DNA from: Orobanche coerulescens
Taxonomy: Eukaryota; Streptophyta; Magnoliopsida; Lamiales; Orobanchaceae
Length of the DNA stretch: 64,000 nt
Direction of reading: 5' to 3'
Assembly: GCA_033398695.1 (NCBI GenBank)
Contig: CM065809.1
Span: forward strand, 173,528,501-173,592,500
Part shown: one piece after another, positions 5,291 to 45,115 of the stretch
Position numbering within the stretch: position 1 is the first letter of the stretch
How the letters are laid out: every line of letters begins with the position of its first letter
Made by a program: the position numbers and the translations under genes
The notes under the pieces: generated by a model
Told to the model about the DNA's origin: nothing
The model's input: only the letters and a program-made list of their open reading frames with translations
The model's database searches: none

Positions 5291-5302
5291 TTTATTGTTT
5301 TG

Positions 5303-6414: not shown

Positions 6415-6451
<37 letters not shown>

Positions 6452-7728: not shown

Positions 7729-7930
7729 TTTATGTTTCAGTTGACAATTTTCGTATTTTGGCTGTTTTGCCCTAAACGATTCTATTCAATAATAGTGTGG
7801 TGCATTTTGATTTTTGAACAAGATATTATTGTTGCTTACGTTATACATGTGATTGGCTTTATTCTACGTCTTGAATATTGCTCCTTATGCTTGAGTCTGT
7901 AAGTTCATAGTTTTTCCACTTTACGTAGGA
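7729..7930 (+). other. gag-pol spacer, intron-like
   Basis: About 200 bp, AT-rich, between the gag stop and the first in-frame Met of pol. The right edge (TTTTTCCACTTTACGTAG, then G) resembles a plant 3' splice site and the left edge contains GTAATT. The exact junctions I tried do not give a clean phase, so this is only a candidate intron. Confidence 0.3.
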
Positions 7931-12171: not shown

Positions 12172-12350
12172 TATTAAAGTAAATACACAGTGTGTGCCTT
12201 AGTCTACGGGCTATTGGGTTTCTCCCAACTAGTATAGGGCTAGGCCTGTTAGAATATTCCAGAACATGTAATCTCTCCCTATTTAAAGGGATCCTATCAA
12301 TGAGAATGCATACATCTTCTGCCCTAATTTCTTGTCTTGCGTGTTTTCTT
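12172..12350 (+). repeat. Copia-1 3' LTR
   Basis: Begins TATTAAAGTAAATACAC (the terminal TG has become TA). It matches 5303-5480 with about a dozen differences; the last few bases are uncertain. Confidence 0.85.
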
Positions 12351-15670: not shown

Positions 15671-15682
15671 AATTATTGAGAT
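15671..15682. repeat. TSD of LINE-2, left copy
   Basis: AATTATTGAGAT. The partner is found only in inverted orientation at 23468-23479, next to the LINE-2 poly(A) end. It is one of three scars that document the inversion. Confidence 0.75.
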
Positions 15683-16266
15683 AGATATGAACCAGCTCTA
15701 TCCCATCTATTCTTTGCTGACGACTTGGTTCTAATGGGGAAGGCAGCACAACCCGTACAATCAAATCAATAGTGGATAAATCCTGAGATTCTTCAGGTTT
15801 GACCGGAAGGTATATGTGACCAGTTGGATAGACTAAATAGAAATTTTCTTTGGTCGAACGATCCTAGCCAAAGAAAAATACATCTCCTCTGTTGGGAGAA
15901 AGTACTGTTACCAAAAAAAGAAAGTGGTTTGGGCATCCGAAGTGCAAGAATCTGTAATGAAGCTTTATTAGCTAAAATTGCTTGGAAAGTTAGGCAAGGT
16001 GAAGAAAGTGTGTGGATTGACATGGTGATGGCTAAATATCTCAAAGGTAAACGTATTCTTGATAGTATTCCTAAACCAGGTGATAGCCAAACCTGAAAAG
16101 GTGCACTCCGTTGTGTTGACAAGATGAAACAAACAACATATCAAGTGGAGAGTTGGCAATGGAAGGAATATATCCGTTTGGTTCGATAATTGGACAGGTT
16201 TGGGTCCATTAGCAAGTCAGGGAGCACAAATACACCACTCTGAAGCCACATTACGGTTGACGGATG
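15683..16266 (+). pseudogene. LINE-2 reverse transcriptase, 5' half of a split copy
   Basis: An L1-type RT fragment on the plus strand. LFFADDLVLM at about 15707-15736 is the catalytic FADD box. It is followed by the thumb/linker region RLNRNFLWSND, HLLCWEKVLLPKKESGLGIR and LLAKIAWKVRQ (15824-16000) and, in another phase, GNGRNISVWFDNWTGLGPLAS (about 16155-16215). The copy is 5'-truncated at 15683 and stops at 16266, where the LTR of element A begins. The codon phase at 16266 continues exactly in the minus-strand fragment starting at 24684 if one copy of the 5-bp TSD is kept. Confidence 0.85.
16262..16266. repeat. TSD GGATG outside element A
   Basis: GGATG just left of the A 3' LTR. Its reverse complement CATCC lies just left of the B 5' LTR (24685-24689). 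This pairing joins A and B rather than the two ends of A. Confidence 0.75.
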
Positions 16267-17203
16267 TGTTGTTGGAGATGCTTTAGAAAATGACAAATGA
16301 TGCAAAACCGAGGCAAGAGTTGGACTCTCTCTCCGTAAGACGAAATTACCCCGCACATTACACACGGCTCAACGGCAAACATCCCCAAGACACAACGGTT
16401 TTCTATGAACTCGATACCTTGTATTAGGAATCGAATTCCAGGCGAACTACTGAATACTCGGGACTTATAGTATGAAGTCTAGGCTAGTATGAGTGTATTA
16501 TTATCTTGATTAATTCTGTGTGAATGATCATCATCTGCAGGGGCTTATTTATAGCCTGTAAAGCACCCTGTCCGAATCAGTGTGACTTTCTGGCTGGACA
16601 GACACCTTGTGGTATAGTGGGAAGGGTTGCATTGGTTTAGGCGAGACAAAACATTGTGTTGGTTCAGATTGCACAGAATGGTCCGAACCATTGCACTGGT
16701 TAGGTCGTGAACCGCCGCTCGTGTTTACACCCGCCAAATCATGTATTTGACATGTCACTGCCACGTGTCAGCCAAGTCACCCTCCACGTCAAAGTGTGCC
16801 TACGAAGCCCGTTGCGAGACGTGCGACGTGCACGTGCTCGGACTCGGACTCGGAAGGTGCTTTGCTCCTTCCTCGTAGAATTCAGATTTTAGCCTTAAAA
16901 ATTAAGTTAAGCCAACTAGGGTGCACCATAATGGAGCACACTTGATTACTCCTTTATGATGGAAAGTCCTTTATAAATAGCTCAACTTTTCCTTATTTTT
17001 CCAATGTGGGATGAGATTCAACACCACATTCCCAACTATTAAATGGCTTAACTTTGTGCATTAATTACTCATTCATTTCTTAATGAAATTGAACAAGTAA
17101 ATACACTAAATTAATCTACACAAAATGTAGATTCCAAATATACCATTTAATGTCATTAATTATCATAATTAATTATGGTATTAATTAAGCTATTTTTCCA
17201 ACA
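16267..17203 (-). repeat. Element A 3' LTR
   Basis: On the minus strand it starts TGTTGGAAAAATAGC (right edge 17203) and ends CATCTCCAACAACA (left edge 16267). The minus-strand TATA box GGCTATAAATAAG is at 16544-16556. Relative to the B LTRs it lacks about 75 bp around position 16784. Confidence 0.85.
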
Positions 17204-17743
17204 ATCCCTTATATGAATGATGATTAATGCAAATGCAATATGCACTAAGTCCCGACGACCTATTAATGCTTCAGGATAGGTAGTACTTAGCCTTGAACCT
17301 TCCTTAGTGTAATGCTATTGGATTTACTCGTTGCTCGGTGAACGTGATGTATTGAACCGGTCAACTTTTATGTAAACTAAGACAACAACATACACACAAT
17401 AATAGATCTAATATCTTTCATTCTCACGCTGTGTCCATTTTGGCCTTGGACCATTTCTTGGATTCATAAGTGTTACTAATTTTATGAAGCGGCCTTACTT
17501 CTTCACTTATATAGGTAATCTCCTATAAAGAGTATCCTGCCATACTCCACCTATAAAAGGCTATAGGAATCATTAAAAGCTTTAAAAAGCTTACAATTTA
17601 CCACAAACTGCAGGCTTGCATTTGAGCAGCTATGAGAATAGATTTTCAAGTGCTTAACTTGAACTTTCACAACTTAGTTGTCTCATTGAACCAAGTTCTT
17701 GTGATCTCCAATCATCCTGGTTGAGTTACCATTATGAAAATTC

Positions 17744-19261
17744 TCAATGTGTGGATTTCAATCCCATTCCCCTTACTGCATTATATAATTGATCACGATT
17801 AGTACCTTTCGTAAACGGATCCTCTATATTATCTTTTGACTTTACATAGTCAATATACATTATTCCTGTAGTGATCAATTGTCTAATGGTATTGTGTGTT
17901 CGATGAATATGTCGAGACTTACCATTATATATACTGTTATTTGCCCTCCCTATGGCTGCCATGCTTTCACAGTGTATCATAACGGGAGGCAAAGGTTTTT
18001 CCCAACAGGGAATATCTTCTACGAAGTTTCTTAACCATTAGGCTTCTTCGCCGGCTTTGTCTAAAGCAATAAACTCCAATTTCATTGTAGATCGGGCTAT
18101 GTACGTTTGCTTAGTAGATTTCCATGATATTGCTCCTCCACCAATGGTAAATACATAACCGCTTGTGGATTTAGAGTCTTTAGTGTCGGATATCAAGTTG
18201 GTATCACAATATCCTTCCAAAACAGCTGGATATCTCGAATAGAATATACCATGATTGACAGTGTGTTTTAAGTATCTCAACACTCTTGTCAATGCGGTCC
18301 AATGATCCTTTCTGGGATTACTCGTAAACCGACTCAGTTTACTAATAGAATATGCTATGTATGGCCTTGTAAAATTTGCTAAGTACATTAAGCTTACAAT
18401 TATCCTAGCATATTCTGTTTGTGATATGGGTTCTCCTCGATTTTTGGCTAAGTGTAAACTTAAGTCAACAGGTGTCTTAGCCGGAGGTAGATCGTATGCC
18501 TTGAATTTCTTAAGCACATTCTCAACATAGTGAGATTGTGATAAGACTATTCCATCGGGTGTTCTGGGGATCTTGATTCCTAGAATCACATCGGCTAGTC
18601 CCATATCCTTCATGTCGAAGCTTTTCTTTAACATTTCCTTAGTACCTATGATGATTTTATTATTGTTACCCATAATTAGCATATCATCAACGTAGAGATG
18701 CATGATGACAAAATTATCAGATGTACCTTTGATGTACACACATTTATCACATTCATTGATTTTGAAACCATTTGACATCATTAATTGATCAAATTTCTCA
18801 TGCCATTGTTTGGGTGCTTGCTTAAGTCCATATAAAGGCTTGACAAGTTTACAAACTTTGTTTTCTTGGCCGGGAACCACGAACCCTTCGGGTTGTTCCA
18901 TATAAATTTCATCTTCTAAATCTCCATTTAGAAAGGCCGTTTTTATATCCATTTGGTGTATCTCAAGATTGTATAATGCGGCTATTGCAAGTAGCATTCT
19001 AATGGATGTAATCCGAGTAACTGGTGAGTATGTATCAAAGTAATCATACCCTTCCTTTTGTTTGTATCCTTTAGCTACCAAACGTGCTTTGTATTTGTCA
19101 ATAGATTTATCGCCTTTGTATTTCTTCTTGAGAATCCACTTGCAACCTAAAGGTTTATTTCCCGGAGGAAGATCAACAATATGCCAAGTGTGATTGTTCA
19201 AGATTAACTCGATTTCACTATTAATCGCTTCTTCCCATAGATCGGCATCGGAACCAGACAA
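17744..19261 (-). pseudogene. Element A RT and RNase H
   Basis: Segment 18038-19261 is a 407-residue continuous [38 protein letters not shown] (first catalytic Asp), [17 protein letters not shown] and [10 protein letters not shown] (intact YVDD). RNase H starts at [15 protein letters not shown] stop at 18038-18040 replaces the Glu codon of the EEAEWLRNF motif; the frame reopens at once and continues to 17744 (HCESMAAIG, KSRHIHRTHN, DPFTKG). The same stop is present in B at 42273-42275. RT itself looks undamaged. Confidence 0.9.
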
Positions 19262-19518
19262 TGCTTCCTTGATTGTCTTCGGTTCGCCTTCTAAAGATTA
19301 GACTACAAAATCCGGACCAAAGGTTTTTGCAGTTTTTATTCTTTTTCCTCGCCTTGGTTGCGGTGTTGGTCCATTATTATTTGGCGAGATTTCATCATAA
19401 GTCCTCTTTTTCGAACTTATTTCATTCTTTTCTTTCTTAGGGAATATAGTTTAAAAAAATATGGCATTTCTTGATTCTATGATCATTCCCTCATTTATAT
19501 CGGGTACTTCTGATTTGT

Positions 19519-20244
19519 CTACCAAAATCGGTATGCACTACTATTATTTACATATCCTATGAAAATGCAATCAATCGTTTTTTGTCCTATTTTTACTTGC
19601 TTGGGTTTCGGTACTTCAACTTTTGTTAAGCACCCCCACACTTTTAAGTATTTATAGGACGGCTTCCTTCCTTTCCATAATTCATATGGAGTTTTATCTT
19701 GCTTCTTTTGGGGTAATTTATTCAAAATTTTATTAGCTGAAAGAATAGCTTCTCCACACATGTTAAGTGATAGGCCCGATCTTATCAACATAGCATTCAT
19801 CATTTCCTTCAATGTTCTATTCTTTCGTTCTGCAACACCATTCGATTGGGGTGCATAAGGTGCAGTCGTTTGGTGAATAATGCCATTTTCACGACAATAT
19901 TCTTCAAAAGGTGCAACATATTCACTACCTCGATCACTTCGAATCATTTTGATTTTGGTGTTGAGTTAATTTTCAACTTCTCTTTTGTATGTTTTGAAAG
20001 CTTCGAATGCTTCGTCTTTGCTTCTCAAAAGATACACATAACAAAATCTTGTGCAATCGTCTATAAAAGTTATAAAATAATTCTTTCCACCTCTTCTTTG
20101 CACAAGTTTTAAATTGCATAGATCGGTGTGAATTAATTCAAGAGGTTTTGTCGATCTTTCCACTGAATGAAAATGAGATTTTGCCATTTTCGCTTCAACA
20201 CAGATTTCACAACTTTTGTATCGATCGAAAGTCATTTTTAGCAA
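19519..20244 (-). pseudogene. Element A integrase
   Basis: The first part (19966-20244) has the CEICVEAKM end of the pre-integrase zinc motif and HTDLCNL with the first catalytic Asp. A nonsense TAA at about 19966 (CAA Gln in B) interrupts the frame, which resumes as IRSDRGSEY (second Asp) and [11 protein letters not shown] (catalytic Glu), then the GKE-type C-terminal part ([20 protein letters not shown]) to 19519. Between 19519 and 19261 lies the decayed hinge to RT. Confidence 0.9.
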
Positions 20245-20291
20245 TAAATCTAAATTTACTAAACGACGTAGTATATTTAGATTTGCATGTC

Positions 20292-21625
20292 CTAATCTAT
20301 CATGCCATAAATTAGAGACTCAACCAAATAAACAACTTTATCATTTATTTCATTATTACCACGTACATTGATAGCATTAAGTTTGAAAAGGCCGTTATCT
20401 ATGTAGCCTTTTCCGATAAAGTGACAATTCTTGGTTATGACAACTTTATCTGCTTTAAACACTAGCCTAAATCCGGCTTTGCTCAATATTGAGCCAGACA
20501 CAAGATTTTTACGGATGTCTGGAACATGTAGCACATTCTTGAGCGTCATTTTCAATTCCGACGTCATCTTGGGTATAACCTCTCCAGTTCCGACAACATT
20601 TGAGGCAGCGGAGTTTCCCATGTACAACTTTCTTTCCTCGGTGATGGGCTCGTAGGAGTAGAACATGGCTTTATCGGCACAAATGTGTTTGGTAGTGCCG
20701 GTGTCAACCCACCATCCGACTGGAATACCGACCATGTTGACTTCATCTACAACTGCATACAGATCAAGACTGGACAAATCGACGGGCACATACTTATTTT
20801 CGATATAATTTGCTTGATCTCTCTTCTTGTCCTTCTTTGGTTTGCGGCAATTTTTCGCCATATGCCCGAATTTACCGCAGTTGTAGCATTCTCCTTTGAT
20901 CTTCTTTTGATTCTTCGAGTCTTGTCTCTTCTCGTTAAATTTTCGGTTTTTATTGTGGCTTGACTTGACGAGATTTGCTTTTGCCTCGATAGATGACTTG
21001 TTCATCTTGACATCGGTCTTCCAATTGTCTTCTTCGATCCTCAGTCGCACAATAAGATCTTCAAGGCCCATTTCATTGCGCTTGCGCTTGAGGTAGTTTT
21101 TAAAATCCTTCCACATCGGGGGCAACTTCTCTATTATGACAGCAACTTGAAAGGATTCAGACAGGCTCATTCCTTCTACCAAAATATCGTGCAGGATCAA
21201 CTGTATTTCCTGCACTTGCTCAAGAACAGTTTTGTTGTCCGCCATCTTGAAGTCGAGAAAATGACCCACGATGAACTTCTTCAAACCGGCATCTTCTGTT
21301 TTATATTTTGTCTCCAATGAGTCCCACAACTCTTTGGACGTTTTGATTGTGGAATAAATACTGTAAAGTGTGTCATACAATCCATTCAAAATATAGTTTC
21401 GACATAAGAAGTCGCTATGATGCCATGCATCCAATGCCGTGCATTTCTGGTTGTCAGTTTCATCATCCCCACAACAGGAGGAGATTCAGAAAGAAAACGA
21501 CAGAGGTTGAGAGTAGTAAGGTAGAACAGCATTTTTGATTGCCAACGTTTGAAATCAATAATTAAAAACTTCTCTGGTTTCTCGGCATGGGCAGGAGCAT
21601 GAATATTGTTGCTTGACGACGCCAT
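20292..21625 (-). pseudogene. Element A gag and protease
   Basis: Gag starts at 21625 (MASSSNNIH), 28 nt inside the 5' LTR. After about 50 residues a missing G in a G run (near 21468) shifts the frame; the main block 21434-20292 then carries the UBN2 gag core ([13 protein letters not shown]), a CCHC knuckle ([14 protein letters not shown]) and protease ([12 protein letters not shown]). A second single-base loss near 20316 breaks the link to the pre-integrase [10 protein letters not shown] sequence. Both lesions occur identically in B. Confidence 0.9.
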
Positions 21626-21652
21626 CTTCTATAGAAAATTTCCTCTTACGAA

Positions 21653-22833
21653 TGTTGTTGTAGATGGTGTAGAAAATGACGAATGATGCAAAACCGAGGC
21701 AAGAGTTGTACTCTCTCCGTAAGATGAAATTTCCCCGCACATCACACACGGCTCAACGACAAACATCCTCAAGATACAACGGTTTTCTATGAACTCGATA
21801 CCTTGTACTAGGAATCGAATTCCGGGCGAACTACTGAATACTCGGGACTTGTAGTATGAAGTCTAGGCTAGTATGAGTGTATTATTATCTTGATTAATTC
21901 TGTGTGAATGATCATCATCTGCAGGGGCTTATTTATGGCCTGTAAAGCACCCTGTCCGAATCAGTATGACTTTCAGGCTGGACAGACACCTTGTGGTCTG
22001 GTGGGAAGGGTTGCATTGGTTTAGGCGAGACAAACCATTGTTGTGGTTCAGATTGCACAGAATTGTCCGAACCATTGCACTGGTTAGGTCGTGAACCGCC
22101 GCTCGTGTTCCACACATGTATTTGACATGTCATTGCCACGTATCAGCCAAGTCACCCTCCACGTCATCCGAGCCAATATCTCAGTTGTCAAAGACGTTTA
22201 TATAGCTATGAAAGTGATACAGCATATGCTCGAAATACGAGCTTCGGCCCTCAGTAGCTCGAATAAAAATAAACCTTGTTCATTTATGTTACCTGTTATG
22301 GATCTTAAACGTTTCACCTTTCATAGATCTGGGAAAGGGGTTTGGGAAGTGACGTTGAGGCCTTCTTTCGGATGACGGCTTCATGCGCGCATTCTATTGT
22401 GATGGTCGAACGAAGTGCAAAGTGTGCCTACGAAGCGCCCGTTGCGACACGTGCAATGTGCACGTGCTCGGACTCGGACTCGGAAGGTGCTTTGCACCTT
22501 TCTCGTAGGATTCAGATTTTAGCCTTAAAAATTAATTAAAGCCAACTAGGGTGCACCATAATGGAGCACACTTGATTTCTCCTTTATGATGGAAAGTCCT
22601 TTATAGATAGCTCAATTTTTCCTTGTTTTTCCAATATGGGATGGGATTCCACACCACATTCCCAATTATTAAATGGCTTAATTTTGTGCATTAATTACTC
22701 ATTCATTTCTTAATGAAATTAAACAAGTAAATATACTAAATTAATCTACAAAAAATGTAGATTCCAAATATACTATTTAATATCATTAATTACCATAATT
22801 AATTATGGTATTAATTAAGCTATTTTTCCAACA
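21653..22833 (-). repeat. Element A 5' LTR with foreign insert
   Basis: 1181 bp, about 170 bp longer than its relatives because 22193-22408 replaces about 40 bp of LTR with unrelated sequence. It ends TTTTTCCAACA at 22833. The rest aligns well with the other three LTRs of the family. Confidence 0.85.
22193..22408. other. Filler sequence inside element A 5' LTR
   Basis: About 215 bp that has no counterpart in the three other family LTRs. The left junction follows CTCAGTTGTCAAA and the right junction precedes CGAAGTGCAAAGTG. No terminal repeats or TSD are visible, so it looks like filler DNA from double-strand-break repair rather than a transposon. Source unknown. Confidence 0.55.
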
Positions 22834-23467
22834 CTCCCAAAAGCAAATCCGATTATCCTTTTAGTAGTTTTTCATTATTTGGTTGCCATTTGTCTTTTCT
22901 TAATGCTTCTTCCCTTTATGTGTCAGTTGATATATTAATCCAGAACGCGTTGAGTTTAAGTGGCAGTCGTCTCCTCATGCTTTATACTTCGGCCACTTAT
23001 TTTACATATCACTGGCATGTTTTCTTTGATAAACCAATCAATAGTTTTAACAAAAATATTTTGACATAATTATATTTTACATGAAAATTATAAACATGTT
23101 TTTTCTTGGCAAACCAATTAATAGCCTGTATAGGGTCAACAATCAACAAATGAATAAATAAAAAACAACAAAAAACAAAATGATTATCAGCAAAGATCAA
23201 ACCCAAACTGGTGCGACAAATAAGACCGATCTATACTAGCTGCTTATTAATATTGTGCAAAAAGTTCTAAATATTATATACGAATAAATTAGAAGGCCTT
23301 TTTTTAGGAGAAGAATTTGTTGCGCAAATCCTTGCTTTAGTTGCTTGAGCTTTGGCCCGGGCCTGTATTATACCACCATTTTATTGAGTCGGGTTGCGAA
23401 GGGCTATTGGGCTGGTGTTTCAACGAGCTTTTCAATGCCTCGCTTTTGGTGCTGTTTGTTAATTTTC
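22834..23467. other. Spacer inside the inverted segment
   Basis: No gene. The first ~40 bp, read on the minus strand (ending GGATTTGCTTTTGGGAG), fit directly onto the MITE that starts at 44123. The remainder is unremarkable AT-rich DNA. Confidence 0.55.
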
Positions 23468-23479
23468 ATCTCAATAATT

Positions 23480-24689
23480 TTTTTATTTTTTTGGTAACGA
23501 AAGACTTTCATTCATTTAGATAACGTCGAACTCATAAAGAGGTATAATTTCTGGAGGAATAATTTCCCGAAAGATTTCACTCTCCACATTCTCACAAACT
23601 AGTCTAGACATCTTGTCTGCACAAAGATTTGCTCTACGGTTTATCCATCTTAGCTCCGCTTGCCAAGGTTTATGCAATAGTCTTTTACATTGCTCCACAC
23701 TCTCCTTTGTGTCACTATTTGCATTCCCTTCCTCATTCTCCACAACCATCTTGTAGAGTTGTAGTGAGTTAACTTCGATAACGATTTTCTAATAGCGGCA
23801 TTCCCAAACTAGTTGGAGTCCCAATCTCAACGCCTCCGCTTCCGCCGAATTCACTGAAGTAGGAACTAACTTCTTATTAACCAATGCCCTTGTTCATCTC
23901 TAAGAAGTCCCCCAACTGCTCATTCGCATCGATTTAGAGACATTCTTCCATCCACATTTAGTTTCACCCAACCTGTATCTGGTTTTCTCCATTTTGTTGA
24001 GGTTGTCGGGTTTATTTGTCCTTAAATTGTGCTCCATCTCCACACTAAGTTGCTTTACTTTGAAGATGATTTCCCCATGGTTGTCCGGTATCCCCCTGAA
24101 CACTACTGAATTTCTGGATTTCCATATAGTCCAGCATGCCGCAATAAAATTCCATGGCCATCCATTTCCGTCACTTCTAGTGTTTCGATCTGCCTGAATC
24201 GTACTCTTCTACAGCCAGTCTTCGTTCCTCATGTTGTCGAAAGCACCCCAATCCTCTGGTTTCACCAGTTTCCTCTATATTTACTGAGCCGCCGGACGGT
24301 GGCGGAGTGTATGTAAGGTCGATTCATTCTCGCACTCGCATTGAGGACACTTTGCAAAATCAGTAATATTCCAGTTTTTGCGTACAACATTCGTAGCCAA
24401 TCTCTCATGAGAAGCTAGCCGTAAGAAATGCTTGATCATGTTACTAAACTTTCTGTTCCAGATCCACTTCCAAGCTTTGGTGCTGCTTGCTTTGTCCCTT
24501 TCGGCATCGCGAAATGCCACAAATGCAGACTGACAAGTGAATTTACCACTGGCCGTTTTACTCCATGTAAGGACATCATCTCAGTCTGTGAGAGTTATCG
24601 ATGCCTGTTGTATGGCTTCTATAGCTGCTGGCGGAATATGGGGCTGCAATTGAGTCCAGAGCCAGTTTTCGTGCTGGTCTATAACATCC
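23480..24689 (-). pseudogene. LINE-2 3' half (zf-RVT and RNase H), inverted
   Basis: The minus strand reads from 24684 as DVIDQHENWLWTQLQ, then the zf-RVT region (24281-24520: KAWKWIWNRKFSNM, HERLATNVVRK, CPQCECENESTLHTLRH) and an RNase H domain with stops (23900-24103 and 23516-23749: ELRWINRRANLCADKMSRL). The 3' UTR ends in AATGAAAGTCTTTCGTTACC plus an A-rich tail near 23480. This is the missing second half of the fragment at 15683-16266, now on the opposite strand. Confidence 0.85.
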
Positions 24690-25711
24690 TGTTGGAAAAA
24701 TAGCTTAATTAATACCATAATTAATTATGGTAATTAATGACATTAAATGATATATTTGGATTCTACATTTTGTGTAGATTAATTTAATGTATTTACTTGT
24801 TCAACTTCATTAAGAAATGAATGAGTAATTAATGCACAAAGTTAAGCCATTTAATAGTTGGGAATGTGGTGTGGAATCCCATCCCACATTGGAAAAACAA
24901 GGAAAAGTTGAGCTATTTATAAAGGACTTTTCATCATAAAGGAGCAATCCAGTGCGCTCCATTATGGTGCACCTTAGTTGGCTTTAATTAATTTTTAAGG
25001 CTAAAATCCAAATCCTACGAGGAAGGTGCAAAGCACCTTCCGAGTCCGAGTCCGAGTCCGAGCACGTGCACGTTGCAAGTGTAGCAACGGACGCTTCGTA
25101 GGTGCACTTTGCACTTCGCTCGAATGCCTCAGAGCGAGGAGCTATGAGGAGCCTTTCATTTTGACAACTGAGGTAGTGGCTCGGATGACGTGGAGGGTGA
25201 CTTGGCTGACACGTGGCAGTGACATGTCAAATACATGATTTGGAGGCTGTGGAACATGAGTGGCGGTTCGCACGACCTAACCAGTGCAATGGTTCAGACC
25301 ATTCTATGCAATCTGAACTAGCACAATGGTTTGTCTCGCCTAAACCAATGCAACCCTTCCCACCAGACCACAAGGTGTCTGTCCAGCCTGAAAGTCATAC
25401 TGATTCGGACAGGGTGATTTATAGGCCATAAATAAGCCCCTGCAGATGATGATCATTCACACAGAATTAATCAAGATAATAATACACTCATACTAGCCTA
25501 GACTTCATACTACAAGTCCCGAGTATTCAGTAGTTCGCTCGGAATTCGATTCCTAGTACAAGGTATCGAGTTCATAGAAAACCGTTGTATCTTGAGGACG
25601 TTTGCCGTTGAGCCGTGTGTGTTGTGCGTGGCAATTTCATCTTACGGAGAGAGTACAACTCTTGCCTCGGTTTTGCATCATTCGTCATTTTCTACAGAAT
25701 CTACAACAACA
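24690..25711 (+). repeat. Element B 5' LTR
   Basis: Starts TGTTGGAAAAATAGC and ends ATCTACAACAACA. It contains three tandem GAGTCC hexamers near 25040 (the other LTRs have two). The TATA element seen in other copies is weakened here (GGCCATAAATAAG). Confidence 0.85.
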
Positions 25712-25738
25712 TTCGTAATAGGAAATTTTCTATAGAAG

Positions 25739-27072
25739 ATGGTGTTGTCAAGCAACAATATTCATGCTTGTGCCCATGCCGAGAAACCAGAGAAGTTTTT
25801 AGTTAATGATTTCAAACATTGGCAATCAAAAATGCTGTTCTACCTTACTACTCTCAACCTCTGTCGTTTTCTTTCTGAATCTCCTCCTGTTGTGGGGATG
25901 ATGAAACTGACACCCAGAAATGCACGGCATTGGATGTATGGCATCATAGCGACTTCTTATGTCGAAACTATATTTTGAATGGATTGGATGACACACTTTA
26001 CAGTGTTTATTCCACAATCAAAACGTCCAAAGAGTTGTGGGACTCATTGGAGACAAAATATAAAACAGAAGATGCCGGTTTGAAGAAGTTCATCGTGGGT
26101 CGTTTTCTCGACTTCAAGATGGCGGACAACAAAACTGTTCTTGAGCAAGTGCAGGAAATACAATTGATCCTGCACGATATTTTGGTAGAAGGAATGAGCC
26201 TGTCTGAATCCTTTCAAGTTGCTGCCATAATCGAGAAGTTGCCCCCAATGTGGAAGGATTTCAAAAACTACCTCAAGCGCAAGTGCAAGGAAATGGGCCT
26301 TGAAGATCTTATTGTGCGACTGAGGATCGAAGAAGACAATTGGAAGACCGATGTCAAGATGAACAAGTCATCTATGGAGGCAAAAGCAAATCTCGTCGAG
26401 TCAAGCCACAATAAAAAGCGAAAATTTAACGAGAAGAGCCAAGACTCGAAGAATCAAAAAAGATCAAAGGAGAATGCTACAACTGCGGTAAATTCGGGCA
26501 TATGGCGAAAAATTGCCGCAAAACCAAGGAAGGACAAGAAGAGAGATCAAGCAAATTATATGGAAAATAAGTATTTGCCCGTCGATTTGTCCAGTCTTGA
26601 TCTGTATACAGTTGTAGATGAAGTCAACATGGTCGGTATTCCAGTCGGATGGTGGGTGGACACCGGCACTACCAAACACATTTGTGCCGATAAAGCCATG
26701 TTCTACTCCTACGAGCCCATCACCGAGGAAAGAAAGTTGTACATGGGAAACTCTGCTGCCTCAAATGTTGTCGGAACTGGAGAGGTTATACCCAAGATGA
26801 CGTCGGGATTGAAAATGACGCTCAAGAATGTGCTACATGTTTCGGACATCCGTAAAAATCTTGTGTCTGGCTCAATATTGAGCAAAGCCGGATTTAGGCT
26901 AGTGTTTGAAGCAGATAAAGTTGTCATAACCAAGAATGGTCACTTTATCGGAAAAGGCTACATAGATAACGGCCTTTTCAAACTTAATGCTATCAATGTA
27001 CGTGGTAATAATGAAATAAATGATAAAGTTGTTTATTTGGTTGAGTCTCTAATTTATGGCATGATAGATTAG
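25739..27072 (+). pseudogene. Element B gag and protease
   Basis: Gag start at 25739; the frame shifts near 25896 at the same G run as in A, and the main block runs 25930-27072. Protease [12 protein letters not shown] is intact. In the zinc-knuckle region a -1 near 26456 and a +1 near 26522 put about 20 codons out of frame, so the CCHC residues are lost although their coding DNA is still present in another phase. The block ends with the same frameshift before pre-integrase as A. Confidence 0.9.
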
Positions 27073-27119
27073 AACATGCAAATCTAAATATACTACGTCG
27101 TTTAGTAAATTTAGATTTA

Positions 27120-30074: not shown

Positions 30075-30088
30075 ATCTCCGACTTACA

Positions 30089-32668: not shown

Positions 32669-32673
32669 CCATC

Positions 32674-33826: not shown

Positions 33827-33853
33827 ATTGGCGCTAGAAGGAGGGCAGGCGCC

Positions 33854-34528: not shown

Positions 34529-34701
34529 ATGAGGGACTAACTCCCGCCCGATCGCCGATATCGACCTACGAATAAAGCGATCGGCTGCCGAGCGACGATC
34601 ACTAGTCTTCCAGCCCGATCGCCGATCATCACGCTACATCATCAGCACCCGGAGGACACGATCGCCATCTACAGTCCAGCATTTAACGTGAGGGACTAAG
34701 G
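34420..34701 (+). repeat. Tandem duplication at the D gag 3' end
   Basis: Two ~130-150-bp units, each with GAGCGACGA, then CCAGCCCG(G/A)TCGC, a CGGAGGAC block and a TGAGGGACTAA end (34541-34551 and 34690-34700). The first unit includes the end of the gag frame. Confidence 0.65.
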
Positions 34702-35366
34702 CTCGCGATCGCCTCCACCGCACATCATAAAGCCATGGTCCTGGCAGCCGATGGAACCGGCTGCTTCGGCCATGCAAGGTCCCTTTCGGCCGAGATCGCC
34801 CGCCCTTCGTTTAAATACGAGGCCGGCGTAGTCTGAGGGCTCTCCAAAATTAATCAGTGGACACGTGCCACTACCCCCGTCTCAACGTACACCGTCGAGG
34901 TTCGTCATCTCCATGGCGGGCCAAGGTGGAAGCAGAGCTAAACAAGCCGCGGGCATGGAGTTGATTCATCCGACGCTGCCCCGCGCAAGGACTCCTCTAG
35001 ACCGAGACCGCACGCCCTTCGTTTAAATACGAGGCGGCGCGCCTATGAGAGGACCCTCATAATAAAGTGAGTCACGAGACACTCAATGTCTTCGCGCACC
35101 AAGACACGGTCATGGAGTCGGTCCATCGAATTCCGCGACTGTGCACGATTCCTCAAACAAAGTGAAACCACCAAGTTTCCGAGGGGGATCGGCCAATGTT
35201 GTTTTTTGCAGGTACAAGACCGAAAGATATCTAGCCAATCGACCATGATAGCCCAAGTCCGAACTAAGTCAGCTCAGCAAAGATCGCCCGTCCTCATCCT
35301 TACACGATCGCCAGCAAGAACCACCTCGCCCCATGTCTTCAACATAGGAGCAAGCTGGGGGGCAAT
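34702..35366 (+). other. Element D noncoding internal region
   Basis: Between gag and the polypurine tract. It holds two copies of CCCTTCGTTTAAATACGAGG (about 34803 and 35015), a motif shared with the equivalent region of E (58829 and 59094). No ORF with a domain. Confidence 0.6.
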
Positions 35367-36526
35367 TGTTGTGTCAAGAATTAACACTCTCCGACCGGCG
35401 ATCGCCTCGGAGATCGGGCGATCGAGTCACTGCCGAGCAGCAAGGCAGAACTGCCAACCAGCGACTAGGCGGCCGAGCCTTTACCCAGCGGACAAGATAA
35501 ATCGGCCAACCGAAGGTCCCAGGACAAGTCCCGGTGCCGAGCGATCGACCTCAGATACGATCGTCACTCGGTACTCGGCGACCGACCCTTGGTGACCGAC
35601 TAATGCCGACCCTCGACAACTAGCCGATGGCGACCTCTGATGACCAGCTAGAGACGACCGCCTCATGTCGATCAGGGCCGATGGCCATCCAATCGGCAAA
35701 GGCCGAGCCTCAAGACTGGCACCACGTGCAAGATCCGAGACAAGATCTGCATATCACGGATCGTTGACCACAGCCTGGCAGAAACTTTCCACCAGCCGAC
35801 AAGCCGCCGAAAGTTGTCAGTAGGGCCGCATGTGACAGTAAGTCCGCCGAAAGCTGTCAGTAGGGCCGCATGTGACAGTGACTCCGGACGCGTGCTGGCT
35901 CCTCATTGGACCGCCCAGCTGGCGCCTGCCTCTTCCTTGGACTTTAGCCCGACAGCCCGGGTGATCGCCCCATTATAATATTGGCCGGCGGATGATCGCC
36001 CCATTATTATAATGGCCGGAAGGCGATCGCCCACCAAAGGACAAGACCCGGCTGCCACTATAAATACACGGCTCCCTACACTTGTCCAAAGGGACTGAGA
36101 TTTTGGCTCACAAAACACTCTCTGCATTATCGCGACTTCAACTTCCTTCAGATTTCACGCAATACAGAAGCAAAATACCCAGCACTTGGCTATCTCCAAC
36201 TCTTGGCAACAGCTATCATTCGGTCCTACTTCTCCCGGCCTCTCTCATCGAGCAGACTATCGGCAGGGACGAAGAACACCGAGCTTCGCTCAAGAGCCGG
36301 ATTAACAGAGTCTTTTTACACTCATTGTATTTAGATTTCTCTCATTAATACTTGTATCCACGAATATTTGTATTAATAACATCTCGCGAGAGCATTCATG
36401 CCCGGGCCTAACAAACCCGGCAAATCTTGTATTATTTATCTTCTCTCGGAAGTGCTCCCGCAATTGTTGTTTGTTGTCCGTATTCCAGTAGTATTAATCT
36501 TCGGATAAATATTTTGGGCAACAACA
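35367..36526 (+). repeat. Element D 3' LTR
   Basis: 1160 bp, near-identical to 32674-33826. TATA element at about 36058-36068. Confidence 0.9.
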
Positions 36527-36531
36527 CCATC

Positions 36532-37895
36532 ATTATGGAGTTTAGAAATGCGTTTCTCATTTATGTGACCAAGTCGACAATGCCATAAGTAAGTCGGATT
36601 AGAATCATTGAACTTAGGTTTCTTGGATGCAATGTTATAGATTTCCAAAGTGTCAGACTCATCTAGATCAATATTGTAAAGGCCAGTATATAACTTTGCA
36701 GTACCATAAAGCAAGTCATCAAAGAAAATACGAATAATCTTATTCTTAATAAGAAAACTGTAACGTGCACAATCTAATGTAGAAACTGAAATAATATTCC
36801 TATTCATAGCAGGAACATAATAGCAATTGTTCAAAACTAACAAAAGCCCGTTGGGTAAAACTAGATCATAAGTTCCTACGGCTAGTGCAGCAACTCTTGC
36901 TCCATTGCCGACTTTTAAATCCACTTCCCCTTTCTTCAGTTCTCTACTGCTTCTCAACCCCTGCACATTTGTACAAATGTGAGATCCACATCCAGTATCC
37001 AATACCCAGGAGTTAGAAGTAGATAAGTTAACTTCTATAACAAATATACCTGTGGTAGTCCCACTACCCTTGGTACGCTTTAGCTCTTCCAAGTAAACCT
37101 TGCAATTTCTTTTCCAATGTCCTGGTTTATTGCAATGATGGCAATTTCCATCTTTGGGAGCTTTATCCTTGGAAGATGGCTTAGCAGAGTCTTTACATTT
37201 GGCAACTTTTGCCTTACCCTTGCCCTTGTCTTTGTTCTTAAAGGATTTCCCTTTGCTGACCATCAACACATGGCTTGGTTTCTTCTTAATATTCTGCTCA
37301 GCCGTTTTAAGCATCCCATGCAGCTCAGCAATGGACTTCTCCATCTCATTCATATTATAGTTCATAATGAACTGACCGAAACTTTCGGGCAATGAGTTTA
37401 GGATCACATCCGTGGAGTGCTCCTTAGAAAGTGGAAAACCAAGCCTTTCAAGATGATCAATATATCCTTCATCTTGAGCACATGAGCGCTGACAGATGTC
37501 CCCTCAACCATCTTGCAAGCATACAAGGTTGGAAAGGTCTCATACCTCTCTTGCCTAGCATGCTTCGAGAAAGTTTCCTTGAGGTGAGCATTTAGCTCAT
37601 AAGCTTCCATTTCCTCCAGATTCTTCTGAAGTTCTGGACAAATGGTGGCTAACATAAGACAACTGACATCAATGGAATCATCACAATATTTCTTCCATTT
37701 GTCTTTTGTTGCTTTGTTTGCATTGTCAGCCGGCTCATCGGGAATTTCTTCCTCAAGAATATACATCTTTCTTTCTTGCTTGAGAACTATTCTCAAGCTC
37801 CGGATCCAATCCAGATAGTTGCTGCCGTTTTCTTTGAGCTTGTCTTTCTCAAGGACGGATCGCAGTGAAATGGTGGATGTGTTGTTTGATGCCAT
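36532..37895 (-). pseudogene. Element C gag and protease
   Basis: Gag begins at 37895 (MASNNTSTISL) and shifts frame near 37465. The second block carries LNSLPESFGQFIMNYN, a CCHC knuckle (CHHCNKPGHWKRNC), protease (WVLDTGCGSHIC) and the pre-integrase motif (LWHCRLGHINEKRISKL). It is cut at 36532 by element D; integrase continues at 32668. The apparent ORF end at 36436 reads into the D LTR and is not part of C. Confidence 0.9.
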
Positions 37896-40041
37896 TCTAC
37901 AAAATTCAATATGAAAAATATTTAGTCACATTATTTTATTTCTCGAAAAATACTCCCACTATAACAAAGTACCCTCAATTTACAATATTTGTAATTTTAG
38001 TGGGCTAAGATCCCATTTTGCACAATCCTAAACTCAGCTTTGGCATGACGCCTGGAATTGAGCTACTTTAGGTGGATAACTCTTTATCGATTACATCATA
38101 TGTAACTCTTAGATTATATCATGGGATTTGGAATCGTATGCCGAAGCATGTTATAATCCCATCTTATGCCTTAAGGTTCAAAACTATTTTGATTTCGAAA
38201 TTCATTAAACGTATAGGTATCACCATTACCTATCCTACCTTACTAAGATAATCCGAGTGCCCAGCTTTGGCATGACCCACTCATGATGATCGAAGTCTTG
38301 ATAGGTATTTTTCAAATGAACGGCATTTTAAAATTTTAACGAGGGATTTTTATCCTATGTTAATGTCTATGTTTGCTAACATACATCTAAACATACATAG
38401 CATCACATACATGCATAAATTTAAACATACATCGCATCACATGACAATAAAAGCATAGGACCGTGTATAGCATGACCATAATCCTAACGTGATTTTCATG
38501 AGCCAACATGAAAATCACAAAGGTCAATCTAAAGGGTTAAATATAGTCTTCATTGATCTTCCTAACTCCTTGGAACGTCATACGCGATCACTTTGCTCCT
38601 CGAGTCCGTCCTTCTTGTCTTCACTACATTAATAAAATTTAATACTACACTAGTAAATTTACAAGAAGTGCAAACGACATACATGCCGTAAAATAATAAA
38701 TAATTTAAATAGACGACTCGCAGGCCGTAAAACCAATTATAATTAAACGACACGCAGGCCGTAAAACCAACCCATAAGGAAATAAATTATCCAATAATAT
38801 TGGTCAATTTATGGTCATGCCATACACCATACACATACCAAAAATAATTATCAAATAATTAATAAAGCATGTAATATACTAAATAATCAATCTGTCTGAC
38901 AATAAGATAATAAATGAAAACTATGTCAAAAATTAACAATCTGGATCCCTATCCCATACGGCCGAGCACGCATCTCCCCTTACGGCTGCGCGGGTTCAAA
39001 TCCTGTCGGCCGCAAAAATGCATTTTCAAACCTTAATTTTGATTTTTTAAAACACGGGTCAAGTAGAAAATCAGTGAGCAAGATTTACAAAAAGGTGCCC
39101 CAGCCAAGATTGTCCAGGCGCGGCATTCGGCTTGAGCCAATGCGGGTTCGAGTCCCCTTGGCTGCGTTATTAATTTTGCAATCTTAAAACAGATTTCCTT
39201 CCTTTTATAAAACTTCCGTGAGATAATTTCCAAAAGAAAACTACAGCCCACTTGGTAAGTCCGCGGAAGGCGGCGGATGACCAGGGTTTGAAACCCTGGT
39301 ATTGCGGTTTCTAATTAAAGCAGCCCGCGGGTCCAGCCCGAACCCACCCAGATCTGTTCCAGAATATTTCTGGAGCAGAAATTCACGAAAACAGTCCAGA
39401 AAATTAATTTTTGATGATCCGATTTAATCAAATTAAACCAGAAAAATTATTTTATAAAATCTATATTTTATAAACATAATCAAGAACATAATTTACACAT
39501 AAACATATTCTACATAAATAATTAAATTACTTGCAAGTTGGCTCCGATACCACTGTTGGGTTTTCTATGCATTGAATACAAAATAATCGGAGTAAAAACG
39601 CAGCAGAAGAATAAATATGAAAACCCAATTTAGGATATGATGCAGTAATTTAATTGTTTAATTAAAGGGTTAATCGAATTACCTTAATCCGATTGAACAA
39701 TTCTAGATCCGGACTAGAAGCAGATGAATATCTCCTTCCTCTTTTGATGATCCACACACAAACAATTCTACAAGGTAAAATATTGCGGAAATATTTTTTC
39801 TAATTAAAGCGACAGCGAGTCCATTTAACCCGACCCGAACCCGACCAGATGTTCCGAATATTTACGGAGCGAAATTCACGATCCGAGAAAATTAATTTTT
39901 GATGATCCGATTTAATCAAATTAAACCAGAAAAATTATTTTATAAAATCTATATTTTATAAACATAATCAAGAACATAATTTACACATAAACATATTCTA
40001 CATAAATAATTAAATTACTTGCAAGTTGGCTCCGATACCAC
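37896..40041 (-). other. Element C 5' leader
   Basis: A 2.1-kb noncoding leader between the 5' LTR and gag. It contains a primer-binding site (TGGTATCGGAGCC, minus strand, 40028-40040), a duplicated primer site at 39540-39552, three tRNA-like B-box segments at 38.9-39.3 kb and small repeats of GCAGGCCGTAAAACCAA (38730-38775). Confidence 0.75.
38940..39310. repeat. Three tRNA-like B-box segments in the C leader
   Basis: GGTTCAAATCC (38993-39003), GGTTCGAGTCC (39145-39155) and GGTTTGAAACC (39285-39295) are at near-regular spacing (152 and 140 bp) on the plus strand. Each is followed by a pyrimidine/purine tail that pairs with upstream sequence (for example CAGCCAAG at 39101 with CTTGGCTG at 39158). 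None folds as a standard tRNA: D arm and anticodon arm are not convincing and lengths are short. Confidence 0.5.
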
Positions 40042-40264
40042 TGTTGGGTTTTCTATGCATTGAATACAAAATAATCGGAGTAAAAACGCAGCAGAAGAAT
40101 AAATATGAAAACCCAATTTAGGATATGATGCAGTAATTTAATTGTTTAATTAAAGGGTTAATCGAATTACCTTAATCCGATTGAACAATTCTAGATCCGG
40201 ACTAGAAGCAGATGAATATCTCCTTCCTCTTTTGATGATCCACACACAAACAATTCTACAAGCC
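39288..40264. repeat. 488-bp tandem duplication of leader, primer site and LTR end in C
   Basis: 39288-39776 and 39777-40264 align at a constant 488-bp offset. The distal ~370 bp (from AATTAATTTTTGATGATCC through the primer site and the first 223 bp of LTR) appear identical, while the proximal ~110 bp have diverged. The element therefore has two primer sites and a partial extra LTR end. Confidence 0.85.
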
Positions 40265-41536
40265 GGATTGCTAGATCCTTACGAATAATATTGATAAATA
40301 GTACAACACAAATTCCTTACTAGAAGGATTGTACTATTGATCAAGATTAACTAAGGGAAGAGGATTAGATGACCGACTCCGTTCTCCTACAATAGAAAGT
40401 AGATGGCTGATTTTCTCTTGCTCTTGAAGCGGGGCGATTTTTTTAAGTTTTTGTCTTATAACAACTCCTTGTCCAAGACCTTATATTTATACTAAGTAAA
40501 CCCTATAGTCAAACTCTAATATTTGCTTAGTTGCCCCTCAACTTATTAAATAATACAATATATATACTATCTAATATTATATATATTACTTATATTTAAT
40601 CTCCTTATAAATATAATATCCAATATTATATTTATTATTCCAAATTGATATTTATTCCTACTTGTCTATAATTATCGTACGTGTGACCCAAAAGACTTAT
40701 ATTATGTTCGCAATTATTTAATATATTATTAAATAATAAATCATAAGCGGCCTCTAGTAAGACATTATGATTACCCAAATAAAATAAGGTAATAGCCCAT
40801 TAAACCTTTTAACGTGTCAAATCCCTTTGTCACGCGATATTATATTTGAACTAAGTCATGGAGTCTGTCATACTTATTTATGTTCAAATGCTTTCTCGAT
40901 CTTAAGTAGGCTGATTGAATCAAATGACTCTTCATTTGAGCATGGCCATGCATTTCCTTCAATCCTGCTTTTCGAGGCCCCAGCAGATATCTCTCTCACT
41001 AAAGAGAGGGACAAATCCCCATCTTGATTATTCATTGCCCTCTACATGACTCCCACTAATCCTGATCGCTAATCTTCATGATCACCATGTTTCAGATGAC
41101 GTTGGATTACGTTAAGGCATAATAGTTATCATGTTGGACTCTATAATAATCTCAGGTTCAAGGATTTATTGACATACTGTTATATTGAGATTCACTTATG
41201 ACATTTCCATGTAGTGATCTCAATGCGGGTCTGTCCAGTATTAGTTCTCCAACCAATACCATAAGATTGATCCGTACCATACGCATAATTATCCGATGAT
41301 TATCAATTAAACTTATACTAGTATATTAATCACTTGAGTCTCTACTCAACATGATTGTACCATGGACATTTGAATAATCTTATTATTCGTGAATAACTAT
41401 TATTCGATTATTATAATATTAAAACATGCACACATTATAATAATCAATGAGAAATAAATGATATCAAATAATTTTATTTAAATGTGATAATTACAAATCT
41501 AAGCACATCGAATGTCCTAGGGCACTATTCCGAACA
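40042..41536 (-). repeat. Element C 5' LTR
   Basis: 1495 bp, left edge TGTTGGGTTTTCTATGC, right edge CTATTCCGAACA. The GTCAA TSD follows. It aligns with the 3' LTR at 28592-30074. Confidence 0.85.
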
Positions 41537-42580
41537 GTCAAATGGTTTCGAAATCAATGAATATGATAAATGTGTGTACATCAAATGTACATCTGATAAT
41601 TTTGTCATCGTGTGTCTCTACGTTGATGATATGCTAATTATGGGTAGCAATAATAAAATCATCATAGGCACTAAGGAAATGTTAAAAAAAAACTTCGACA
41701 TGAAGGATATGAGATTAGCCGATGTGATTCTAGGAATCAAGATCTCCAGAACACCCGATGGAATAGTCTTATCACAATCTCACTATGTTGAGAATGTGCT
41801 TAAGAAATTCAAGGCATACGATCTACCTCCGGCTAAGACACCTATTGACTTAAGTTTACACTTAGCCAAAAATCGAGGAGAACCCATATCACAAACAGAA
41901 TATGCGAGGATAATTGGAAGCCTAATGTACTTAGAAAATTGTACAAGGCCAGACATAGCATATTATATTAGTAAACTGAGTCGGTTAACGAGTAATCCCG
42001 GAAAGGATCATTGGACCGCATTGACAAGAGTGTTGAGATACTTAAAACACACTGTCAATCATGGTATATTCTATTCGAGATATCCAGCTGTTTTGGAAGG
42101 ATATTGTGATACCAACTTGATATCCGACACTAAAGACTCTAAATCCACAAGCGGTTATGTATTTACCATTGGTGGAGGAGCAATATCATGGAAATCTACT
42201 AAGCAAACGTACATAGCCCGATCTACAATGAAATTGGAGTTTATTGCTTTAGACAAAGCCGGCGAAGAAGCCTAATGGTTAAGAAACTTCGTAGAAGATA
42301 TTCCCTGTTGGGAAAAACCTTTGCCTCCCGTTATGATACACTGTGAAAGCATGGCAGCCATAGGGAGGGCAAATAACAGTATATATAATGGTAAGTCTCG
42401 ACATATTCATCGAACACACAATACCATTAGACAATTGATCACTACAGGAATAATGTGTATTGACTATGTAAAGTCAAAAGACAATATAACGGATCCATTT
42501 ACGAAAGGTATTAACCGTGATTAATTATATAATGCAACAAGGGGAATGGGATTGAAATCCACACATTGAGAATTTTCATA
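41537..42580 (+). pseudogene. Element B RT 3' part and RNase H
   Basis: Continuation of the RT interrupted at 28591: [25 protein letters not shown] (YVDD intact) and [20 protein letters not shown]. RNase H begins [11 protein letters not shown]; a TAA at 42273-42275 sits at the same Glu position as in A, and the frame continues to about 42570 (HCESMAAIG, KSRHIHRTHN). The ORF start drawn at 41484 lies in the LTR of C and is not real. Confidence 0.9.
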
Positions 42581-43109
42581 ATGGCAACCCAACCAGGATG
42601 ATTGGAGATCCCAAGAACATAGTTCAATGAGACAACTAAGTTGTGAAAGTTCAAGTTAAGCACTTGAAAATTCATTCTCGTAGCTACTCAAGTGCAAGCC
42701 TGCAATTTGTGGTAAAGGGTAAGCTTTTTAAAGCATTTAATGATTCCTATAGCCTTTTATAGGTGGAGTATGGCAGGATACTCTTTATAGGAGATCACCT
42801 ATATAAGTGAAGAAGTAAGACCGCTTCATAAAATTAGTATCACTTATGAATCCAAGAAATGGTCCAAGGCTAAAATGGACACAACGTGAGAACGAAAGAT
42901 ATTAGATCTATTATTGTGTGTATGTTTTTGTCTTGGTTTACATAAAAGTTGACCGGTTCAAGGCATCATGTTCACCGAGCAACGAGTAAATCCGATAGCA
43001 TTACACTAAGGAAGGTTCAAGGCTAACTACTACCTATCCTGAAGCAATAATAGGTCGTCGGGACTTAGTGCATATTGCATTTGCATTAATCATCATTCAT
43101 GTGGGGGAT

Positions 43110-44122
43110 TGTTGGAAAAATATCTTAATTAATACCATAACTAATTATGGTAATTAATGATATTAAATGGTATATTTGGAATCTATATTTTGTGTAGATT
43201 AATTTAGTGCATTTACTTGTTCAATTTCATTAAGAAATGAATGAGTAATTAATGCACAAAGTTAAGCAATTTAATAGTTGGGAATGTGGTGTGGAATCCC
43301 ATCCCACGTTGGAAAAATAAGAAAAAGTTGAGCTATTTATAAAGGACTTTCCATCATAAAGGAGCAATCAAGTTAGCTCCATTATGGTGCACCCTAGTTG
43401 GCTTTAATTAATTTTTAAGGTTAAAATCTGAATCCTACGAGGAAGGTGCAAAGCACCTTCCGAGTCCGAGTCCGAGCACGTCACACGTGTCGTAACGGGC
43501 GCTTCGTAGGCACACTTTGCACTTCGCTCGAATGCCTCAGAGCGAGGAGTTGTGAGGAGCCTTTCATTTTGACAACTGAGGTAGTGGCTCGGATGACGTG
43601 GAGAGTGGCTTGGCTGACACGTGGCAGTGACATGTCAAATACATGATTTGACGGGTGTGGAACACGAGCGGCAGTTCACAACCTAACCAGTGCAATGGTT
43701 CAGACCATTCTATGCAATCTGAACCAGCACAATGGTTTGTCTCGCCTAAACCAATGCAACCCTTCCCACCAGACCACAAGGTGTCTGTCCAGCCAGAAAG
43801 TCACACTGATTCGGACAGGGTGCTTTACATGTTATAAATAAGCCCCTGAAGATGATGATCATTCACACAGAATTAATCAAGACAATAATACACTCATACT
43901 AGCCTAGACTTCATCTACAAGTCCCGAGTATTCAGTAGTTCGCCCGGAATTTAATTCCTAGTACAAGGTATCGAATTCATAGAAAACCGTTGTATCTTGG
44001 GGATGTTTGCCATTGAGCCGTGTGTACTGTGCGGGGAAATTTCGTCTTACGGAGAGAGAGAGAGTCCAACTCTTGCCTTGATTTTGCACCATTCGTCATT
44101 TTCTACAGCATCTACAACAACA
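43110..44122 (+). repeat. Element B 3' LTR
   Basis: Starts TGTTGGAAAAATATC after the polypurine tract and ends ATCTACAACAACA. The TATA region is altered (TTACATGTTATAAATAAG). Confidence 0.85.
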
Positions 44123-45115
44123 GTGAGTGCTTCTGGCTTTTACTTTTAAAAAAATAATTTTGTCGTATTTTGATAGTGCTTCTGTAAAAAGCAGAATCAC
44201 TTTCAAAAGTTGAAAATGTGTTTTTTTTGGAAGTACTTCTCGGGGTGCTTCTAAAAAAAGAAGAAGCAGTTTTTTTTTCAAATTATCAAATTACCCCTAA
44301 ATTAAATTAAATTTTAAGGCAATTGATGTCTTTTTCTCCGTCGCAGTCTCATATTGTATTAATAAATTATTATTAATAAATACCTTTAATATAATACATT
44401 TAATTTAAATAAAGACAAAAATATTAATAAGACAGCACACCCTTTTTGGTTTTTGAACAGGTTAAAAGTACTTCTAGTTATAACTAAGGATGATATATCG
44501 TACCGTATCGAAGTTTTTTGCCAATACCGTATATCGTATCGAAAGTTTCGGTACAACAAAATTCATATGGATACCATACCGAAAGTTATTTCGGTATACC
44601 TAAATTTCGGTATGGCTTTCGGTCCATACCGATACCGCATCGAAATTTTGGTATACCAAATTTTATTTCGATATCGGCATACACCGAACTTATCGAAATA
44701 CCGAATTACCAAAATATCGAAAAAATCTTGATATACCGATATATACCGAAATACCGAACAAATAATATACCAAAAACATCGATATACCAATACATATTAA
44801 AATACCATTTTTTTGGTAAAATCATACCGTTACTGTACCGAAAATTGGTACCGTACCGAAAAATTGGCATACCGAAATTTTCGGTAATTTCAGTAATTTT
44901 TCGGTACGATAAATTTGATATTTCAATATTTCGATATATTTTGTCACCCCCTAATTATAACCGATCCAAACACTTTTTTTTTTCCAAAAAACTGCTTTCA
45001 TAAAAATTTATACAAATATAAAATTAAACTGCTTCTACGTTTGACTTATGCTTCTCCTTTTAATTTTTGATTTTTTTAAGAGCCAATTCACACGGACCTA
45101 ATTAGACTCGGCGCA
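44123..45115. mobile_element. MITE-like element with nested hAT MITE
   Basis: Subterminal phrases GTGCTTCTGGCTTTTACTTTT (left) and CTGCTTCTACGTTTGACTTATG (right) recall the element at 2441-3330. The left end is cut by the element B LTR; its missing first ~20-40 bp appear at 22834-22870 on the minus strand. No coding capacity. Confidence 0.55.
44485..44953. mobile_element. hAT-type MITE with CGGTAT repeats
   Basis: 469 bp bounded by TAAGGATGA on the left and TCACCCCCTA on the right (inverted-repeat partners), flanked by 8-bp direct repeats GTTATAAC (44477-44484) and ATTATAAC (44954-44961) with one mismatch. An 8-bp TSD and a TAGGGGTG-like end are typical of hAT. The interior is a mass of short palindromes such as CGGTATACC and TACCGAAATTTCGGTA variants. 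Confidence 0.7.

Follow-up and report, generated by a model that had tools for sequence, protein, structure and literature searches.

Cross-paired target sites at two opposed copia elements point to a retrotransposon-mediated inversion in Orobanche coerulescens

Inversion 2z3 of Drosophila buzzatii is attributed to ectopic recombination between copies of the transposon Galileo that lie in opposite orientation and carry exchanged target-site duplications (PMC2775673). For long terminal repeat (LTR) retrotransposons of plants, recombination is described in wheat between LTRs of the same orientation, with loss of sequence (PMC7156093), and gene conversion is reported to be far commoner within an element, between its two LTRs, than from one element to another (PMC7251063). 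Inversion by facing copies of a mobile element is a process already known from other organisms. The present analysis concerns a 64-kb stretch of the genome of Orobanche coerulescens (contig CM065809.1, positions 173,528,501 to 173,592,500; hereafter the window), which contains two copia retrotransposons in opposite orientation, A and B, together with the two separated halves of a long interspersed nuclear element (LINE). The arrangement suggests, with a probability that we put at about 0.84, that ectopic recombination between two inverted copia copies, X and Y, inverted the DNA between them. Directly observed, in the one assembled sequence from which the inversion is inferred, are cross-paired target sites, the split LINE, an inverted LINE duplication, and the register of a miniature inverted-repeat transposable element (MITE).

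Target sites, a split LINE and a MITE around two copia elements

Element A occupies positions 16267-22833 on the minus strand (3' LTR 16267-17203, 5' LTR 21653-22833) and element B positions 24690-44122 on the plus strand (5' LTR 24690-25711, 3' LTR 43110-44122), the limits of both being based on LTR alignment. Their LTR ends are of the TG...CA type (TGTTGG...CAACA). Retrotran_gag_2, zf-CCHC, Pol_BBD, and RVT_2 were matched in A, and Retrotran_gag_2, Pol_BBD, rve, and RVT_2 in B; the order gag, integrase, reverse transcriptase is seen in B as gag, rve, and RVT_2 and in A as gag and RVT_2, with the integrase of A falling outside the scan. Among the protein matches listed, the best was a Tnt 1-94-like protein of Sesamum radiatum (76%). 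B is split by a nested element, and A was aligned separately to piece 1 (24690-28591) and piece 2 (41537-44122) of B, which gave identities of 95.65% and 95.29% and differences at 169 of 3,882 (4.35%) and 118 of 2,503 (4.71%) ungapped columns, respectively. Judged from their sequences, A and B are copies of one Tnt1-like Ty1/copia element in opposite orientation. Translation indicates that both are defective through frame changes and stops. Inspection of the translated gag-integrase part by eye shows some frame changes common to A and B, others private to one copy, and private stops; the common lesions may have been inherited from the source or converted.

The insertion that splits B is an LTR retrotransposon at 28592-41536. 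It is flanked by a perfect GTCAA at 28587-28591 and 41537-41541 although its LTRs are 94.1% identical, and it provides a control within the window for the decay of target-site duplications at an unrearranged element. It is the only such control; two other LTR-type repeats gave no readable duplication at the limits guessed for them (5302-12349 and 55975-63020) and were not used.

Neither A nor B by itself is flanked by a 5-bp target duplication. On the element strand, A has GGGAG upstream and CATCC downstream, and B has CATCC upstream and GTGAG downstream; the two 5-mers match at 0 of 5 positions within each element. Across the elements, the downstream flank of A matches the upstream flank of B at 5 of 5 positions (CATCC), and the upstream flank of A matches the downstream flank of B at 4 of 5 (GGGAG/GTGAG), in agreement with both pairings proposed in an earlier note on this DNA. 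Among random 5-mers of the window, a 5/5 match occurs at a frequency of 0.0013 and a match of at least 4/5 at 0.018. The putative target-site copies of X are GGATG left of A (16262-16266, plus strand), identical at all five positions to the flank of B's 5' LTR on the element strand, and CATCC left of B (24685-24689, plus strand); those of Y are CTCCC right of A (22834-22838, plus strand; GGGAG on the minus strand) and, by the same flank comparison, GTGAG right of B (44123-44127, plus strand). Age alone does not account for the mismatched flanks, because the nested element retains its duplication intact. An inversion, by contrast, would leave duplications that are missing within the elements yet paired across them.

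The LINE provides further evidence. Its 5' half, truncated and decayed and comprising the end of the reverse transcriptase and the following region, lies on the plus strand at 15683-16266 and ends in GGATG; its 3' half runs on the minus strand from 24689 to an A-rich end at 23480. When the halves are joined over a single GGATG, translation continues in one frame and reads ...LRLTDVIDQHENW..., as the earlier note had claimed. Of 680 candidates, 9 proteins reached E<=1e-3 with a read-through query of 335 aa, in which stops were written as X and one frame change was bridged. The best of them, P0121, aligned with 302 residues of the joined peptide (query 32-333 of 335) without a gap and with 45% identity. 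Taken alone, the halves align to adjoining parts of the same protein, at 49% (subject 167-316) and 42% (320-468), and each has P0121 as its best match among the nine, which indicates one LINE rather than halves drawn from different LINE families. The first 12 query residues align apart, further upstream (P0121 36-47), and the 5' half therefore carries an internal deletion; its stops and frame change identify it as a decayed copy. With a shorter LINE protein query (192 aa), none of 43 candidates reached E<=1e-3. The 12-bp target-site duplication of the LINE, AATTATTGAGAT, lies on the plus strand at 15671-15682. Its reverse complement occupies 23468-23479 (the copy on the minus strand), and each orientation occurs once in the window. 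The partners are thus inverted relative to each other, again as the earlier note had stated.

The site of Y lies in a MITE, of whose family a second, diverged copy is found at 2440-3330. What is left of the entered MITE on the right of B, with another insert of its own, extends over 44128-45060 (BLAST to the copy at 2470-3302; right limit approximate). The other DNA of the inverted segment, 22839-23467, begins at its left with the outer end of this MITE, on the basis of an in-register match to the copy near 2440. The register was anchored on a 26-nt block right of B that is 92.3% identical to the copy. If a 5-bp site is counted a single time, A's right flank (28 nt, minus strand) matches the copy at 18 of 28 positions; ten other site lengths (0-10) gave 6-12 matches of 28. 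Across both strands of the window, self included, 18 was reached by 11 of 127,946 ungapped placements. At its right end, the MITE aligns to the second copy at 81 of 109 columns. These matches support Y as an insertion of its own, whose 5-bp duplication later changed at one base. Because the second MITE copy is a diverged relative, this evidence is weaker than that of the LINE, and the claim that the joined flank reconstitutes a MITE holds less firmly, at the 5-bp site only. An A+T-rich, self-complementary stretch at 44490-44960, in the MITE right of B, has a diverged relative at about 5028-5294.

Cross-paired duplications, together with older elements that can be rejoined, are the marks by which inversion through ectopic recombination is recognized. 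The proposed model would place X in the LINE (target GGATG) and Y in the MITE (target G(G/T)GAG), in opposite orientations and with insertions probably close in time. A crossover between the facing copies would have inverted the intervening DNA and left each present element flanked on one side by the site of X and on the other by that of Y; it may have lain in the 456-bp tract described below, in the inner part of the 5' LTRs, or at the LTR tips. Under this model, the segment that is certainly inverted is 22834-24689 (1.86 kb). It could reach about 24.6 kb, provided that the 456-bp tract was the crossover site and that the nested element had inserted earlier. A and B have also exchanged DNA non-reciprocally, in this recent tract and probably in an older one at the inner 5' LTR.

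DNA exchange between the elements and the test of chimerism

A stretch of 456 bp is identical in A (17857-18312, minus strand) and B (42001-42456, plus strand); it follows RVT_2, and by the usual copia layout we take it to be the RNase H region. With 0 differences between A and B, it contrasts with a next longest identical run of 134 in either piece and with neighbouring sequence that differs by about 5-6%. When the differences of piece 2 were shuffled, a run of 456 bp was reached in 0 of 20,000 trials (largest run, 318). A three-segment model of piece 2 (4.9%, 0%, 6.0%) beats a single rate by 17.6 units of the Bayesian information criterion, a gain equalled by 0 of 100 permutations, likewise fitted with up to three segments. 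For piece 1, with a badly aligned U3 stretch masked (A 22190-22406), no segmentation beats a single rate.

Conservation was assessed in 120 listed of 7,210 relatives, for columns with residues in at least 40 of them and conservation of at least 90%. Within the tract, A and B carry the same change in 7 of 59 conserved columns, versus 0 of 68 outside (Fisher p 0.004); one of the seven is a nonsense codon (18038-18040 in A, 42273-42275 in B). Unshared changes show the opposite distribution, with 0 of 59 in the tract versus 7 of 68 outside (Fisher p 0.015), the latter comprising 4 in one copy only and 3 in both copies but differing. The identity of the tract does not look like the result of conservation, because its conserved columns carry identical changes in A and B. 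Most likely, to judge from this pattern, the tract was copied between A and B after one of them had decayed. A few of the seven common changes could be family traits, which would then be expected outside the tract as well. Excess identity and changes that postdate insertion, by which gene conversion is recognized, are both found in the tract.

The absence of differences over 456 bp bounds the age of the tract at roughly 0.7% divergence (95%, own calculation), compared with LTR distances of 0.055-0.085 (Kimura two-parameter, K2P). An often used substitution rate is 1.3e-8 per site per year; at this rate, the tract would be younger than about 0.25 million years versus 2-3 million years for the insertions. 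The tract is a record of recent DNA exchange and may also be the site of the crossover.

If the crossover took place inside the elements, A and B should be chimeras, with the 3' LTR of A pairing with the 5' LTR of B and the 5' LTR of A with the 3' LTR of B. The four LTRs share 918 ungapped columns, 12 of which are two-against-two sites. Nine of these 12 group the 5' LTRs of A and B together, apart from their 3' LTRs (the chance of at least 9/12 for one named pairing is 0.004), 2 unite A with A and B with B, and 1 shows the predicted pairing. The LTRs are nearly equidistant (5.3-7.9%, raw), which makes the test low in power and unable to place the crossover.

The union of the 5' LTRs points to gene conversion, because a crossover merely shuffles the letters of X and Y in each column. 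Seven of the nine 5'-uniting sites fall in the inner LTR (from B 25308, a split chosen post hoc), where no sites conflict with them and where the pair of 5' LTRs differs by 3.23%, versus 5.5-6.7% within each of the five remaining pairs. The outer LTR shows six distances of similar size (5.2-6.8%); X and Y were therefore probably inserted close in time and would have left little pairing signal. The distance between A and B is 2.8% over B 25328-27698. These values suggest that an older conversion tract probably covers the inner 5' LTR or the 5' half; it is only suggestive because, as noted, segmentation of piece 1 fails to beat a single rate.

Several observations weigh against the proposed inversion or limit how firmly it can be stated. 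The LTR pairing predicted for chimeras appears at only 1/12 informative sites, and Y's two target copies differ at 1/5 bases. The U3 of A's 5' LTR (22167-22405) is longer than, and different in sequence from, both LTRs of B, and A's 3' LTR is deleted there; such a variant would fit an A/A, B/B pairing better. If the U3 variants represent two sources, the crossover would have occurred in the outer LTRs rather than in the interior. Finally, the same arrangement would result if the assembly had switched copies inside the elements. The earlier note had held that the insertion scars prove an inversion and that A and B are reciprocal chimeras. Its placement of X in the LINE and Y in the MITE in opposite orientations, with inversion between them, came through the flank, LINE, and MITE tests; "prove" is too strong, and reciprocal chimerism is not demonstrated by an LTR comparison of low power.

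Alternative explanations

A more dynamic version of the proposed inversion is possible, if doubtful. The facing copia pair would act as a recurrent flip, in which exchange keeps a stretch identical and recombination possible, so that the segment was inverted recently, perhaps repeatedly, and both orientations might persist in the species.

Unlikely, though the likeliest of the rival explanations, is an error of assembly, in which the true order is uninverted and the assembler switched between X and Y in an identical stretch. The 456-bp run without a difference exceeds typical short reads, and a switch there would give the same scars. Against this, the whole A/B pieces are 4.35% and 4.71% divergent, a level that poses no difficulty for long reads, and the decay common to both copies of the tract shows a real exchange of DNA in any case.

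An explanation by one-sided copying is considerably less probable. A break in or beside X would have been repaired by break-induced replication or template switching on the inverted copy, with no reciprocal crossover; the repair itself would have produced the flip and made one element in part a copy of the other. Non-reciprocal exchange is indeed evident, in the 456-bp tract and in the 7/7 inner-LTR sites that unite the 5' LTRs; however, both sites retain both of their own target copies (Y's with one mismatch), which is the direct outcome of a reciprocal crossover.

Two further scenarios have next to no probability. In the first, the LINE was inverted at its own insertion by twin priming, and two unrelated copia insertions came to lie at the ends. 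Oppositely oriented LINE halves are often seen in L1 biology, but the cross-matching copia flanks and the MITE register would then be coincidences. Twin priming leaves target duplications in direct orientation, and those of this LINE are mutually inverted, so a twin-priming inversion of the LINE is ruled out. In the second, A and B inserted independently long ago and lost their duplications by decay or deletion, without any inversion; LTRs that are several percent diverged (K2P 0.055-0.085) would allow this, but the GTCAA of the nested element is perfect at 94.1% LTR identity, and the 5/5 and 4/5 cross matches and the continuity of the LINE would be left unexplained.

Neighbouring features and comparison with known systems

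Other features of the window lie outside this argument. On its minus strand, the nested element at 28592-41536 carries a copia-type RVT_2 at 30089-31039 (below Pfam's cutoff) and Pol_BBD at 36436-37407. It also includes a direct repeat of about 1.16 kb (32674-33826 and 35367-36526, 96.6% identical), and a tandem duplication (39337-39774 and 39834-40262, 96.6%) overlaps the start of its second LTR. A diverged copia gag-integrase remnant lies on the plus strand at 6674-9391, its gag match being below Pfam's cutoff, and a gene of the PPR-DYW type lies on the minus strand at 53421-55340 (open frame of 639 aa). A search of viral contigs with the LTR start gave 0 exact matches; with the reverse transcriptase, 3 stretches fitted the pattern, and none was a relative.

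With two older elements that can be rejoined and an exchange tract whose age is bounded, the locus would offer an unusually complete single-locus record of an inversion by plant LTR retrotransposons. In a partial survey of the open-licence literature, no plant copia inversion with exchanged duplications was noticed, and no absence is claimed. More generally, the locus lends itself to questions about the recency and polymorphism of small inversions by facing retrotransposons, and about the extent to which LTR dating is disturbed by conversion between elements.

In their Gag, Pol_BBD, integrase core, RVT_2, and TG...CA LTR ends, A and B resemble Tnt1-like Ty1/copia elements, but they are defective by frame changes and stops. 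They share recombination between copies and gene conversion in LTRs with the plant LTR retrotransposons treated in PMC7156093 and PMC7251063; conversion here appears to have taken place between two elements, in contrast to the mostly within-element conversion described in PMC7251063. The closest resemblance is to the Galileo copies of inversion 2z3 as reported in PMC2775673, with which A and B have in common the opposite orientation and the exchanged target-site duplications. Galileo is a DNA transposon, whereas A and B are LTR retrotransposons, and for 2z3 uninverted chromosomes were compared and both copies were reported as chimeric (PMC2775673), whereas the A/B locus is known from one arrangement alone.

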